From positions 2,111,470 to 2,175,469 of the forward strand of contig NZ_AP018290.1 in assembly GCF_002368415.1 (NCBI RefSeq): DNA of 64,000 nucleotides, read 5' to 3'. The notes below the pieces were generated by a model. The model was not told where the DNA came from, did no database searches, and saw only the letters and a program-made list of their open reading frames with translations. The position numbers were made by a program, and so were the translations under genes. Within the stretch, counting starts at the first letter, position 1. Every line of letters begins with the position of its first letter. Shown here piece after piece: positions 20,012 to 63,806 of the stretch. This DNA is from Calothrix sp. NIES-4105. GTDB lineage: Bacteria; Cyanobacteriota; Cyanobacteriia; Cyanobacteriales; Nostocaceae.

Positions 20012-20128
20012 TTGAATACGTTGAGTTCAAGCCAATTTACAAAATGTATTAGCAATTAAGTAAGCTGCCGTTAAAAATCAAAGTATGTAACAAAATGTCA
20101 ACTAGCCTAATCCACACAAGGATAAGTT

Positions 20129-20548
20129 ATGAAGTCTAAAAATTTAGAAAAATCTAAAGCACTAATTGTAGATAATGAAGGTAGCAATCGACTTTACCTT
20201 ACTGTTGCACTTGAGCAAGAAGGTTGGGAAGTAAGCCAAGCACAAGATGGTCGAGAAGCAATAGAAAAAGTTTTGAAATGGCGACCAGATTTATTGATTT
20301 TAGATTATCAGATGCTAGAATTAACAGGAGTCGAAGTCGATCAGCTTCTTCAGTTACATGGTATTAAACCAATAGTTGTATTGATTTCCTCAGACAGCGA
20401 GTTAGAGAAAATAGCCTCTTATTTGGCTATTACTTATTATCTCTACAAGCCATTTGACATTGCGGAATTTCTGAAAATTATTAATTATGCTTACGAAACT
20501 TATTTAAATTGGTGTAGATATAGCCAAGCTGTCACCAAAATTAATTAG
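20129..20548 (+). CDS. Single-domain response regulator, tandem copy 1
   Basis: A 139-residue receiver with phosphoacceptor Asp in LLILDYQM and Lys in LYKPFDIAEF; the acidic motif is DNE rather than DDE, and Ser (LISSD) stands for Thr. ACAAGGATAAGTT precedes the ATG, giving AAGGATAA as ribosome binding site, and the same sequence stands before the copy at 21076. The two proteins are the same length and mostly identical in the first 60 residues, so they come from a tandem duplication. It is transcribed from its own 11-bp-repeat promoter. Confidence 0.88.
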   Translation: MKSKNLEKSKALIVDNEGSNRLYLTVALEQEGWEVSQAQDGREAIEKVLKWRPDLLILDYQMLELTGVEVDQLLQLHGIKPIVVLISSDSELEKIASYLAITYYLYKPFDIAEFLKIINYAYETYLNWCRYSQAVTKIN

Positions 20549-20964: not shown

Positions 20965-21075
20965 TTGAATACGTTGAAGTTTAAGCCAACCTACAACGTC
21001 ACTCCTCTAGGAAATAACGAAGGTTTGATTATAGGCGCAGCAATAATTATCAGAGATGACACATAAGGATAAGTT

Positions 21076-21495
21076 ATGAAGTATAAAAATTTAGAAAAAA
21101 TTAAAGCACTTATTGCAGATGATGAAGGTAACAATCGGCTCTGCCTTAGTTTTGTACTTGAGCAAGAAGGTTGGGAAGTAAGCCAAGCACAAGATGGTCG
21201 AGAAACAATAGAAAAGGTTTTAAAATGGCGACCAGATTTATTGATTTTGGATAACCAAATGCCAGAATTAACAGGAGTTGAAGTTTATAAGCTTCTCCAA
21301 TTATATGGGATTAAACTAGCAATTGTATTGATTTCCGCAAACAGCGAGTTAGAGGAAATAGCTTCTAGTTTGGGTATTCCTTATTATCTCCAAAAACCAT
21401 TTGACATTGCAGAATTTATAACAAAGACGAATTCTGCTTACGAAAATTATTTAAATCAGAAGCTGCTAGTTTATGAAGATATCTCACATAATTAA
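21076..21495 (+). CDS. Single-domain response regulator, tandem copy 2
   Basis: A 139-residue receiver with DDE, phosphoacceptor Asp in LLILDNQMPELTG and Lys in LQKPFDIAEF. It has the complete acidic motif that copy 1 has partly lost, so it may be the better conserved duplicate. It ends the signalling cluster; its stop overlaps the end of a remnant on the other strand. Confidence 0.88.
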   Translation: MKYKNLEKIKALIADDEGNNRLCLSFVLEQEGWEVSQAQDGRETIEKVLKWRPDLLILDNQMPELTGVEVYKLLQLYGIKLAIVLISANSELEEIASSLGIPYYLQKPFDIAEFITKTNSAYENYLNQKLLVYEDISHN

Positions 21496-38623: not shown

Positions 38624-38817
38624 ACAAGTTCAACTTCATACTAAAAACCCACTTTAGCTAAGGTGGATAATATAGAACATTTATTTTAAACTTTATTGTA
38701 ACTTAAGGCTTAATTTATTAGTAACAGAATACTGCAAAACATTAAGATTTGTAAATAATTATTTTTTAAGAATAAGTAAGAATTAGAGTTTAGCGAGCCA
38801 AGCATGTGATATAGTTC

Positions 38818-38900
38818 ATATGCTTCAAGTTGGGAAACTCCGGTGAGATTCCGGGACTGTGCCGCAGCTGTGATTATAAGTCAGAATGCCAACTTGAGCA
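38818..38900 (+). ncRNA. Cobalamin (B12) riboswitch
   Basis: AAGTTGG...CCAACTT closes a structured region holding GGGAAACTCCGGTGAGATTC, then CCGGGACTGTGCCGCAGCTG and AAGTCAGAATGCC. These match the conserved adenosylcobalamin aptamer elements (GGGAA, CCGGTGAGATTCCGG, a B12-box-like CCGCAGCTGT and AGTCAGAA). It lies directly upstream of cobG, a B12 synthesis gene. Confidence 0.92.
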
Positions 38901-42523: not shown

Positions 42524-42551
42524 GTAGAGACGCAATTAATTGTGTCTCTAC
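42524..42551. repeat. 28-bp GTAGAGACG palindrome, copy 1
   Basis: GTAGAGACGCAATT faces AATTGTGTCTCTAC, a nearly perfect 28-bp palindrome in the spacer after the Uma2 gene. Same-length copies lie at 49883, 52399, 52552 and 57324. Confidence 0.8.
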
Positions 42552-49882: not shown

Positions 49883-49910
49883 GTAGAGAGGTGATTAATC
49901 GCCTCTCTAC
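49883..49910. repeat. 28-bp GTAGAGACG-type palindrome, copy 2 (variant)
   Basis: GTAGAGAGGTGATT faces AATCGCCTCTCTAC, a 28-bp palindrome downstream of sufS. It may double as a terminator. Confidence 0.75.
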
Positions 49911-49959: not shown

Positions 49960-51225
49960 CTAACCCAAAATACTACTGAAGAAGTCGATTGTATCTTTGA
50001 GGGCTTTAATAAAGGTGTCGATTTCTTCGTGGGTGTTATAGAAGGCTAAACTCGCGCGCGCGGTTCCGCTAGTTAAATTCAAATAACGGTGTAAGGGTTG
50101 GGTACAATGATGACCGGAACGAATTGCTACTCCTTCTTGGTCTAATAATGCTGACAAGTCGTTGGGGTGTATGTCTCCTGCTGTGAAGGATGCTAGTGCC
50201 GCGCGTCCAAAACCATTGGCGTTGGGTTTGGGACCGTATATGGTAATATCTGGAATGGCTTCGAGTTGTTCAAATAAGTATGATGTTAATTCTGCTTCAT
50301 AAGCATGAATTTGATCCATACCTAGTTTCGTTAGATAGTCTACTGCGGCGCCTAATGCGATAGCTTCACCAATAGCGGGTGTACCGGCTTCAAATTTATG
50401 CGGTAATTCTGCGTAGGTAGAATGGTCTAAATATACATCGGCTATCATTTCACCACCACCTAAGAAGGGTGGCATTGCATTAAGGATTTCTTCTTTACCG
50501 TATAAAAAACCAATGCCTGTTGGGGCGCACATTTTGTGACCGGAAGCAACTAACCAGTCACAGTCTATTTGCTGTACGTCTACTGGCATGTGAGGTACAC
50601 TTTGGCAAGCGTCAATTAAAACTTTGGTGCCATATTTATGAGCAAGTTTGCAAATTTCTTGGACAGGGTTAATGCATCCCAAGGTGTTTGAGACATGCAC
50701 TACCGATACTAATTTAGTTTTTTCTGAAATTAATGTTTTAAAGTGTTCAAAATCAAAAGTTTCTTCTTCTGTTAGTTCCACATGCTTTAATATAGCACCC
50801 GTTTTTTGAGCAACAAAATGCCAAGGTACTAAATTGCTGTGGTGTTCCATCACTGAGAGGATTATTTCATCCCCTGCTTTTAAGTTATTCATTGCCCAGC
50901 TATACGCTACCAAATTGATAGCTTCGGAAGCGTTGCGGGTGTAAATGATTTCGTTACGAGAATTTGCGTTTACAAATGCTGCTATTTTATCGCGCGCTGC
51001 TTCGTAAGCCTCTGTTGCTTTTGCACTAAGAGTATGGGCGCCACGGTGAACGTTAGCATTGTAGCCTTCGTAGTATTGGCGCCAGTTATCGAGAACGAAC
51101 AGCGGTTTTTGTGAACTAGCTGCGCTATCTAAGTAAACTAGAGGTTTGCCGTTGACTTCTTGGTGCAAAATAGGAAAGTCACGACGTACTCTATGGGCAA
51201 TGGTAATGTCTTTTGCAAGAGTCAT
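49960..51225 (-). CDS. sufS: Cysteine desulfurase SufS
   Basis: A 421-residue PLP enzyme that takes sulfur from cysteine for Fe-S cluster assembly. The PLP lysine is in [18 protein letters not shown] and the active-site Cys in [35 protein letters not shown] starts the protein as in group II desulfurases. It is the last gene of sufBCDS, 106 bp after sufD, with a 12-bp inverted repeat (51246-51305) in between. Confidence 0.96.
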
Positions 51226-51331: not shown

Positions 51332-52687
51332 TTAAAATTGTTTGACTTCATTTAAAAGATTATCCCGTAAGGAGGTAACAGGAATATTATTGATTATCTC
51401 AGTGGCGAAGGCATTAATTAACAAGTTACGCGAATCATTCTCGTTAATACCTCGACTTTGTAGATAAAAAATCTCATCGTCTTCTAACTGGCTAACAGTG
51501 GCGCCGTGGGCACATTTGACGTTATCGGCAGTAATTTCCAGTTGCGGTTTTGTATCAACTCGCGCTTTGCTCGATAACATCAAGTTACGATTTAACTGTG
51601 ATGCATCGGTTTGCTGTGCTGGTTTGGGTACAAATACTTTTCCGTTAAAAATAGCGTGTGCTTTATCGCCGACAATATTCTTTTGTAACTGCTTGCAAAC
51701 ACCATTAGGATAATTTAAAGCAATAGCGCTATGCATATCCGCTAATTGTTCGCCTTTTATCATCGCTAACCCGTTCAGGGTTGTCTCGGTTTGCTCGCCA
51801 GTTTGTAAAATTTCTAAATTGTGGCGCCCTAATAAACCACCATTATTAATAGCATTACAGGTATAGCGACTATAACGCGCTTGAGTGACAGCAGTCTTAC
51901 CAACGTGAAAAGCTTCTGAACTTTCCTTCTGTACTCTAGTATGACTCACACTAGCATTATCAGAAATCCAGATTTCCGTAACTGCATTGGTAAAATAACC
52001 CCTCTGTGTGCCCTCTGTGTCTCTGTGGTAAAAGTCCTCCACAAAACTCACCTGAGAACCAGTCTCCGCGACTACCAAACAACGCGGCAAAGAAATAGCA
52101 CCCTCACCAGCAGTAATATATACCAAATGAATTGGTGTTTCAACGACTACATTTTTTGACACCCAAATTACTGCCGCATCTTGCATTCCCGCAGTATTTA
52201 ATGCTGTAAATACTTCTAAGGCGCCTTCCGCTTGTGCTAGATACTGCTGTGTTTTAGCAGTATATTCTTCAGGAAGATTAGCTAAATTTGTAACTAATAT
52301 TCCTTCTGGTAAGTTTGAGACTGCTGATAATTCAGGTGTGTATATACCGTTGATAAATACCAAACGGCTGTTTTCGGCCTCGGGTAAAATTTGGGGTTGT
52401 AGAGACGCGACATGTCGCGTCTCTACATTTTTGAAATTTATCTGTTTTAATTTGGATAAATCTGTGAAACGCCACTCTTCATCGCGGTTGGTTGGTAATG
52501 TTGAATGACGCACCCAATTTGCCGCGCGCTGTTTAATTTCTTGTAACCAATGTAGAGACGAGACATGTCGCGTCTCCACAACAATATTCAATAGCTCTGT
52601 TAAATAAGTATCTCTATCTAACAAAGTAGAGGTTAGACTGATAACGCTGGAATTGGGAATGGGGCTAGGAGAAACTTGTGTTGTCAT
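51332..52687 (-). CDS. sufD: Fe-S cluster assembly protein SufD with repeat-encoded insertions
   Basis: A 451-residue SufD, scaffold partner of SufB and SufC. The conserved C-terminal core is intact (NLEILQTGEQTETTLNGLAM, DNVKCAHGATVSQLEDDEIF, SRGINENDSRNLLINAFATE). Three stretches are encoded by interspersed repeats, all in frame: VETRHVSSL near residue 40 (52552-52579), VETRHVASL near residue 90 (52399-52426) and FYHRDTEGTQRG near residue 225 (52001-52030). They sit where SufD proteins vary, probably in surface loops. ATG 52687 (MTTQVSPSP) is chosen over 52711 because it follows sufC by 1 bp. Confidence 0.95.
   Translation of the reverse strand: MTTQVSPSPIPNSSVISLTSTLLDRDTYLTELLNIVVETRHVSSLHWLQEIKQRAANWVRHSTLPTNRDEEWRFTDLSKLKQINFKNVETRHVASLQPQILPEAENSRLVFINGIYTPELSAVSNLPEGILVTNLANLPEEYTAKTQQYLAQAEGALEVFTALNTAGMQDAAVIWVSKNVVVETPIHLVYITAGEGAISLPRCLVVAETGSQVSFVEDFYHRDTEGTQRGYFTNAVTEIWISDNASVSHTRVQKESSEAFHVGKTAVTQARYSRYTCNAINNGGLLGRHNLEILQTGEQTETTLNGLAMIKGEQLADMHSAIALNYPNGVCKQLQKNIVGDKAHAIFNGKVFVPKPAQQTDASQLNRNLMLSSKARVDTKPQLEITADNVKCAHGATVSQLEDDEIFYLQSRGINENDSRNLLINAFATEIINNIPVTSLRDNLLNEVKQF
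52001..52030 (-). repeat. ACCACAGAG-type repeat inside sufD
   Basis: On the minus strand TACCACAGAGACACAGAGG is followed by GCACACAGAGGGG. It encodes YHRDTEGTQRG within SufD. The same family occurs at 8495, 33081, 33865 and 44892. Confidence 0.8.
52399..52426. repeat. 28-bp GTAGAGACG palindrome, copy 3, inside sufD
   Basis: GTAGAGACGCGACA faces TGTCGCGTCTCTAC, a perfect 28-bp palindrome, read in frame as NVETRHVASL. Confidence 0.88.
52552..52579. repeat. 28-bp GTAGAGACG palindrome, copy 4, inside sufD
   Basis: GTAGAGACGAGACA faces TGTCGCGTCTCCAC, two mismatches, read in the same frame as copy 3 to give VVETRHVSSL. Confidence 0.87.
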
Positions 52688-57323: not shown

Positions 57324-57351
57324 GTAAAGACGCGAATATTCGCGTCTCTAC
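57324..57351. repeat. 28-bp GTAGAGACG palindrome, copy 5
   Basis: GTAAAGACGCGAAT faces ATTCGCGTCTCTAC, 28 bp with one mismatch. Confidence 0.82.
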
Positions 57352-57572: not shown

Positions 57573-57613
57573 CAGGTAGAGACGTGAGAATTCGCGTTGC
57601 TATATCTACCTGC
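57573..57613. repeat. Extended hairpin related to the GTAGAGACG family
   Basis: GCAGGTAGA at the left pairs with TCTACCTGC at the right, enclosing GACGTGAGAATTCGCGTTGC. It looks like a degenerate family member inside a longer stem, at the 3' side of the UPF0145 gene. Confidence 0.6.
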
Positions 57614-60767: not shown

Positions 60768-60799
60768 TGGCAACGGATATAACGGATGTAACGGATAGT
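60768..60799 (+). repeat. ACGGATGTA-type short tandem repeat
   Basis: GGCAACGGATATAACGGATG followed by TAACGGATAG, units related to the array at 63313. A reverse-oriented copy lies at 61188-61224. Confidence 0.7.
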
Positions 60800-63090: not shown

Positions 63091-63806
63091 GGTTGTTGAG
63101 ATGTTGCATCAATCCAAACTTAGCCCCAATGTAATGATTTTGTATATTGTTTAAATTTGAGGGTTTTCTAAGTACGATTGAATATTTTTTACCTATTAAT
63201 TCATCCGTAATTAGAGTTTAACAATTTCGTTTACAATATCAATTTAATGTGGGCACTTTTATTGGAATTATAGGGCGAATATTATCTTAATATAATGAGT
63301 TTTGTCAAGTAATTGGCAACGGATGTAACGGATGTAACGGATGGGTGATTTGTTTGGTTGTGGATATTGCTTTGGCAACGGATGTAACGGATGAGTTATT
63401 CGTTTGGTTGTGGATATTGCTTTGGCAACGGATGTAACGGATGTAACGGATAAGTTCTTGGTTTGGTTGTGGATATTGCTTTGGCAACGGATGTAACGGA
63501 TGAGTTATTCGTTTGGTTGTGGATATTGCTTTGGCAACGGATGTAACGGATGTAACGGATGAGTTATTGGTTTGGTTGTGGATATTGCTTTGGCAATGGA
63601 TTGGATTCTTGGTTTGGCTGACACTAATTTTTAATTTGTTAAAATTTGTTTTTTATATTGCGATTATTTAATACTTACAATACTTTAGTACTAAGGGTTA
63701 TTTATAAGCAATTGGCTCTTTTTATATTTGACATATATATACAAAACTAAGCTTAGTCAATGCTTATATCTTTGTTTTTTAAGAAAGCTTAAAGATATCA
63801 TAAAAA
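63091..63806. other. Spacer dominated by a tandem repeat array
   Basis: No gene. A/T-rich sequence (63100-63300), the repeat array (63313-63600), then more A/T-rich sequence to the next start. Confidence 0.5.
63313..63600 (+). repeat. Tandem array of alternating 59- and 50-bp units
   Basis: Units begin with TTGGCAACGGATGTAACGGA at 63313, 63372, 63422, 63481 and 63531, with a partial sixth at 63590. Successive lengths are 59, 50, 59, 50 and 59 bp. The 9-bp difference is one extra GTAACGGAT word. The other half of each unit is GGTTTGGTTGTGGATATTGC or close to it. Confidence 0.9.

Follow-up and report, generated by a model that had tools for sequence, protein, structure and literature searches.

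In-frame 28-bp palindromes in SufD and other core enzymes of Nostocales: possible blockwise overwriting of protein loops

Introduction

How do two members of a dispersed palindrome family come to be translated inside sufD, a gene whose product otherwise appears undamaged? A sequence-only reading of this locus held that whole elements had been inserted, each adding 9-10 residues to the protein in the manner of the Rickettsia palindromic elements. Here we compare the two sites, their orthologs and further host genes of the same family, and we hold with moderate confidence that the best explanation is that short patches are copied from other family members onto protein loops that tolerate them, at the cost of some target codons.

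Results

The sufD gene occupies positions 51332..52687 on the minus strand of the window, the whole 64-kb stretch of DNA that was analysed, as a single open frame of 451 amino acids whose best PDB matches are SufD chains (SufD is present in entries 5awf and 2zu0). Site 2, at 52399..52426, is a perfect 28-bp palindrome (GTAGAGACGCGACATGTCGCGTCTCTAC) that encodes VETRHVASL(Q), SufD residues 88-97, and site 1, at 52552..52579, is an imperfect one (GTAGAGACGAGACATGTCGCGTCTCCAC, 12 of 14 pairs intact) that encodes VETRHVSSL(H). The sequence-only reading was thus right that two family members lie in one shared open frame and that the rest of SufD is intact, and the three copies it placed elsewhere are all present: two outside sufD at 42524..42551 (subtype CAATTAATTG, one arm mismatch) and 57324..57351, and one at 49883..49910, just past the end of ORF 49960-51225, which we take from its place and sequence to be sufS. 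A degraded copy that it had missed, with three arm mismatches, lies at 57576..57603 and brings the window total to six. No match to the palindrome was found in 100 dinucleotide shuffles of the window, and the predicted RNA fold at site 2 has an energy of -22.2 kcal/mol (z -8.35). In Rfam, searched at gathering cut-offs over the whole window, the palindromes are unmatched and the sole match is an AdoCbl-II (cobalamin) riboswitch at 38814-38899 on the plus strand (49.7 bits). The window also holds an array of 109-nt units at 63313-63639 (motif ACGGATGTAACGGATG), with a related piece at 60768, and two 300-nt direct repeats at 20113-20412 and 21060-21359 that are 88% alike and 947 bp apart.

These copies belong to a family in Nostocales whose 28-bp unit consists of arms GTAGAGAC..GTCTCTAC around one of a few discrete inner subtypes. 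The whole genome from which the window comes (G000; 12.04 Mb in 8 contigs) contains 450 copies at ≤2 arm mismatches, and a control search of it with the reversed pattern returned 0. Perfect palindromes make up 76 of the 94 distinct copies with exact 8-nt outer arms, a set drawn from fetched DNA and hence not a random sample, and five inner types account for 69 of these 76. Seven genomes were counted for exact-arm copies, which number 21-300 in five genomes of the same family and 0 in a genome of another family (G036).

The majority of copies are dispersed outside genes, and 23 of the 93 distinct own-genome copies examined lie in ORFs of ≥120 aa, in a sample that comes from fetched loci and was partly picked for likeness to the sufD copy. 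The sequence-only reading had proposed looking for the palindrome inside other genes and recording its frame; 17 of the 23 copies read as VETxxxxSL and six as RDAxxRVST, and since the third frame opens with TAG, zero copies fall there by construction while the TAG is intact. In the fetched loci the 23 copies fall in 21 ORFs, a few of them perhaps pieces of one gene, and Pfam domains were found in 16 of the 17 own-genome ORFs tested. The hosts include RecJ, two CobN/ChlH-like proteins, UreD, SMC, a UvrD-like helicase, peptidase M1, NACHT, an ABC transporter, NRPS condensation and AMP-binding domains and WD40 proteins, among others. With so many copy-bearing genes, sufD is one case of many. Three own-genome AMP-binding (NRPS) domains (L010, L194 and L015) carry palindromes at apparently the same place, directly ahead of a putative L[TH]Y motif, although automated matching did not pick up L015.

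A clean insertion should lengthen the protein, and this was examined in 130 SufD loci (30 of the same family including our own, 20 further and 80 named) representing 121 distinct genes. The site 2 segment, from RFTDLS to SRLVF, is 39 aa long here, 34-46 aa in the family and 37-48 aa in an outgroup set of 14 sequences (L051-L065 minus L056). Linkers without the palindrome are similarly long, and so the predicted gain of 9-10 residues leaves no sign at site 2; an absence of length change in alignments, the outcome that the sequence-only reading had itself set against its claim, is what is found there. The PDB SufD chains, from E. coli, run through site 2 ungapped, though aligner confidence is low just there. 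At site 1 the segment measures 25 aa against 22 in most Nostocaceae, a net gain of 3 aa in place of the 9-10 expected. One congener (G001) also has 25 aa, with a related palindrome; five others have 22 aa, with a remnant of the left arm; and longer forms of 31, 33 and 45 aa occur in L108, L112 and L109. In one relative (L122) the compared stretch of SufD has 46 aa, where its sister L129 has 39 and both L124 and L126 have 37; this is nearer to a plain insertion, and the L122 palindrome seems to sit within an older remnant. The SufD loci L029, L033 and L035 show repeated right arms. A unit of 28 bp is not divisible by 3, and its clean insertion would shift the frame. At one locus (G045:C123:14441-15641) the SufD frame is split in two, in a draft genome that is 86% complete, and this could be an assembly error.

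Site 2 proved to be a recurrent position. Arms at ≤3 mismatches are found there in 45 of the 121 SufD genes, in the same frame in all 45, and in one of 331 control segments elsewhere in sufD; site 1 has them in five of the 121. Their presence across the family shows that insertion at site 2 is neither recent nor private to this genome. On a SufD tree built with the palindrome columns left out, a quick tree in which some long branches meet, 43 of the 45 arm-bearing genes fall inside a supported clade of 91 rows, and the arm label takes 27 changes, at least 15 of them forced by supported branches. The label is clustered, 0 of 500 shuffles giving a count as low. Read from these sequences, the pattern at site 2 is one of old presence followed by repeated loss or renewal, in a change count that cannot separate gain from loss. 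The complementarity of the SufD arms is preserved while their letters change, and in Anabaena and Sphaerospermopsis (L123, L125 and L132) paired changes surround one inner sequence.

The loops of other hosts behave in a similar way. The RecJ segment is 43 aa in 13 sequences (our own genome and L250-L263, of which L262 and L263 are one gene), whether or not a palindrome is recognisable; L254 and L259 are unreadable there, a stop cutting the frame, and their alignment length equals that of the rest. Among 26 further sequences (L292-L317) it is 42 aa in 17, 43 aa in L292 and L299 (same family), in the palindrome-bearing L293 and in L302, 44 aa in L316 and L317 (one gene), and 51, 52 and 68 aa in L307, L310 and L315; the net gain is from 42 to 43 aa (+1). 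In the ChlH-like protein of L218, the same position carries different subtypes across more than a single genus, and the lengths there resemble those of palindrome-free sequences; in that of L248 three congeners with the palindrome have 54-55 aa against 51-53 in four without it (+1 to +4). In other genera the ChlH-like linker carries, in L271, two stretches resembling the palindrome and, in L275, an insert that is longer and of another kind. The UreD loop is 47 aa in four congeners that bear the palindrome or its remnant; among eight more distant relatives, from which a 24%-identical match in G007 was excluded and to which G035 contributed no match, it is 41-43 aa in five and 45, 45 and 50 aa in three, a net gain of about +5. 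In two other congeners (L341 and L342) heptamer repeats of the ACTCAGC type are found where the palindrome would be, also at 47 aa, and in a third (L343) heptamers and other repeats make up 63 aa, so that one UreD loop (L338-L348) has hosted several repeat families.

For PabB-like proteins the best 120 of 7997 listed proteins were compared, at the protein level except for the DNA of G002 and G003. The loop preceding RPIAGT, a motif that one of the 120 did not match, has 10 aa in 81 of the 119 matched proteins and 15 aa in 30 (about +5), and the last residues of the 15-aa loops, VST or AST, are those expected from translation of the repeat. These proteins (P0002-P0121) range from 453 to 604 aa, a range of which the studied loop accounts for a small part. 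In the alignments made with relatives, several species or genera have copies in the same loop. Across the genes compared, a copy goes with a length difference of 0 to about +5 aa, a small change that points to replacement of part of the target.

Comparison of orthologous sites in close relatives revealed that the inner subtype itself can differ between otherwise similar genes. In the chlH-like gene of L218, half of the 12 inner bases (6) are changed between G000 and G003, in a pattern symmetrical on the two arms, while the flanks differ at 6 of 234 positions; for G000 and G002 the counts are 6 of 12 inner and 9 of 234 flanking bases. At sufD site 2 the subtype is TTACATGTAA in G003 and CGACATGTCG in G000, G002 and G005; relative to G000, four inner bases differ in G003 and, as aligned, ten in G006, with 22-34 of 231-234 flanking bases differing among congeners. 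The letters of G002 and G005 equal those of G000 exactly beside flanks that differ at 26 and 27 of 234 bases, and exchange is therefore not constant at this site, or the site is held. In recJ, the differences amount to 3-6 of the 12 inner bases and 25-37 of the 240 flanking ones, several copies are imperfect, and clean subtype switching was not seen among the congeners compared. The place orthologous to the 42524 copy holds subtype TTACATGTAA in G002, between flanks that are 86% and 74% identical.

A wider comparison of G002 and G003 covered 400 and 360 kb, of which 180 kb lies in long matches that are 93.5% identical, with 15 and 19 copies, respectively. Both flanks could be located for 12 of the 19 G003 sites: three are identical, one has a one-base change, one is partly changed on both sides, three are switched, one forms a filled/empty pair and three, left unclassed, are caught up in indels of 91-322 nt. 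At one additional G002 site, G003 shows a deletion of 4 nt. The switched sites, three of nine common to the two genomes, are those of sufD, the chlH-like gene and the pabB-like gene, all in genes, the last with a 30-nt length difference as well. The filled/empty pair lies outside long ORFs and shows a gain of 25 nt without target duplication, which by eye is 28 nt minus three matching bases (G at one end and AC at the other). Junctions of differing in-gene copies vary by 3 or 6 nt, and some G003 copies, judged by eye and uncounted, seem to fuse halves of two subtypes. Between G000 and G002 (400 kb each), synteny amounts to a block of ~20 kb around sufD and two short matches elsewhere, and 3 of the 22 palindrome sites in G000 are alignable.

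Discussion

What is seen would require inner letters brought in from elsewhere, slight alterations at the junctions and the loss of some target bases, and the best fit is short-patch ectopic template switching or conversion. In each event a short patch would be copied from another family member, anchored by the shared arms or by a few matching bases and usually replacing some of the target bases; hairpin template switching could afterwards re-match the two arms. Selection would then clear frame breaks and harmful peptides, and copies in tolerant loops would persist in the two stop-free frames, the encoded peptide probably having no function of its own. The copying itself we infer from compared sequences. 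In 24 outgroup recJ sequences (L294-L317), the landing site ranks, at the median, within the top 18% of in-frame positions for likeness to the arms; this resemblance is weak, and anchoring by matching bases is thus also something we infer. Arms of 8-9 bp offer little shared sequence for RecA-dependent conversion. Related work describes how templates are switched at imperfect inverted repeats in E. coli (PMC7202029) and how inverted-repeat arms are homogenised in yeast coding genes (PMC8604942), and gene conversion was proposed earlier for the evolution of REPs (Higgins et al. 1988). More broadly, and tentatively, since we rate this somewhat below even, the 28-bp palindromes may be a shared pool of spare loop sequences with which loops of core enzymes across Nostocales are repeatedly overwritten, in frame and blockwise, as short patches pass between family members, so that SufD, RecJ, ChlH-like proteins, UreD and PabB-like proteins would change there by the block and not by point mutation.

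The main competitor is repeated transposition, in which a Y1/RAYT-like transposase would re-insert elements into the same tolerant loops and slippage between old and new copies would delete the rest, mimicking exchange. The own genome does have 23 Y1 transposase matches, REPINs are known from RAYT-containing genomes that include Nostoc punctiforme (PMC3116915, accessible part), and both the nested-looking remnant of L122 and the repeated right arms of L029, L033 and L035 fit such a history. However, with RAYTs and other Y1 transposases counted together, three of 20 fetched Y1 loci (66.5 kb; three further matches yielded no locus) have a palindrome, all three with ≤1 arm mismatch, against about 2.5 expected from 450 copies; the filled/empty pair gained its 25 nt without target duplication, and every switch would need two precise steps between conserved flanks. 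We regard repeated transposition as unlikely, albeit the most serious of the alternatives. The clean Rickettsia-type insertion of the sequence-only reading, with whole elements adding 9-10 residues at each sufD place, accounts for in-frame translation, for an intact host and for the net +3 aa at site 1, yet it conflicts with the lack of a length gain at site 2 relative to relatives, outgroups and PDB SufD chains, with a unit of 28 nt and with arms in 45 of 121 SufD genes. At site 2 the alignment lengths rule out such a gain, in agreement with the PDB alignment, and for the two places together we consider clean insertion the least probable account of all.

Two further alternatives would keep all change within the site, and to each we assign a small probability, marginally above that of clean insertion. 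If a hairpin in the suf mRNA were selected for pausing, stability or processing, this would keep the arms complementary, and the strong predicted fold at site 2, the complementarity that persists despite letter changes and the identical letters of G000, G002 and G005 beside an 11% flank difference are what one would expect. Against it, G.U pairs are not preferred over A.C (21 versus 20 in 36 sufD copies; 10 versus 23 in 13 recJ sequences), which gives no sign of RNA selection, 76 of the 121 SufD genes are without arms at ≤3 mismatches, and the same DNA behaves alike outside sufD and sits in unrelated genes. Mutation in place alone, by hairpin template switching (quasi-palindrome correction) with no exchange between copies, would suit the predominance of perfect palindromes (76 of 94) and the paired SufD changes of Anabaena and Sphaerospermopsis, but the differing subtypes are mostly ones that are abundant in these genomes, and at L218 half of the inner bases differ beside a flank that is nearly unchanged.

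If copying between family members is the correct reading, comparison of close strains would offer a natural system for counting ectopic copying of ~28 nt, protein loops would evolve by block exchange, and the orthologous filled, empty and switched sites would make the spread of tiny gene-less elements testable. It also carries a caution, in that a repeat-encoded peptide seen in an alignment is not necessarily an insertion, as overwriting can change the letters and leave the length unchanged.

Rickettsia palindromic elements add a peptide of their own to the host protein as an extra piece, and the likeness to them drawn by the sequence-only reading stands for the in-frame tolerance and fails on size (28 bp) and on clean gain (0 to about +5 aa). 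In the accessible part of PMC10969869, those elements are translated in frame in many unrelated genes, as here, and are about 150 bp long versus 28 bp. Unlike them, the present family combines a small net gain, to which the longer SufD of single relatives (L109 and L122) forms an exception, with recurrence at the same loop across genera and exchange in place.

Small dispersed repeats (SDRs; Elhai et al. 2008) are reportedly mobile elements of very small size (21-27 nt) in Nostoc-related cyanobacteria, with eight high-copy families limited to a coherent cyanobacterial group, and are reported to show compensatory changes, nested insertions and an association with heptamer repeats. The 28-bp family is probably related to these SDRs of Nostoc or to the GTAG repeats. 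GTAG-type REPs (Di Nocera et al. 2013, PMC3733652, accessible part) are likewise short palindromes with a terminal GTAG, filamentous cyanobacteria are among their hosts, and some are intragenic and translated, as here. They are dispersed and mostly intergenic, a trait that the present family shares, with 23 of 93 copies of a non-random sample in ORFs. The same source proposes flexible linkers as tolerant hosts and mentions repair genes, and repair-type hosts occur here too (RecJ, the UvrD-like helicase and SMC). However, a GTAG-type REP has an unpaired GTAG tag at one end, whereas in the present family GTAG is paired with CTAC and the palindrome extends over all 28 bp; its association with RAYTs (Y1) is matched here by no excess (the 3 of 20 loci given above); and the accessible text of PMC3733652 contains no description of in-place subtype exchange. 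Template switching in coding genes (PMC8604942, accessible part) is alike in making arms match and altering several bases of a protein-coding sequence at once, but acts within one inverted repeat, and the new letters here agree with copies elsewhere in a dispersed family. Bacterial proteins with palindromes translated in frame are already known, from the accessible parts of PMC10969869 for Rickettsia and of PMC3733652 for intragenic REPs. The main texts of the literature searched, as far as accessible, gave no description of the 28-bp family translated in frame in cyanobacteria, nor of recurrence at the same loop across genera together with subtype exchange in place. The element itself resembles the known small repeats of cyanobacteria, and it is the exchange in place that sets it apart as unusual.
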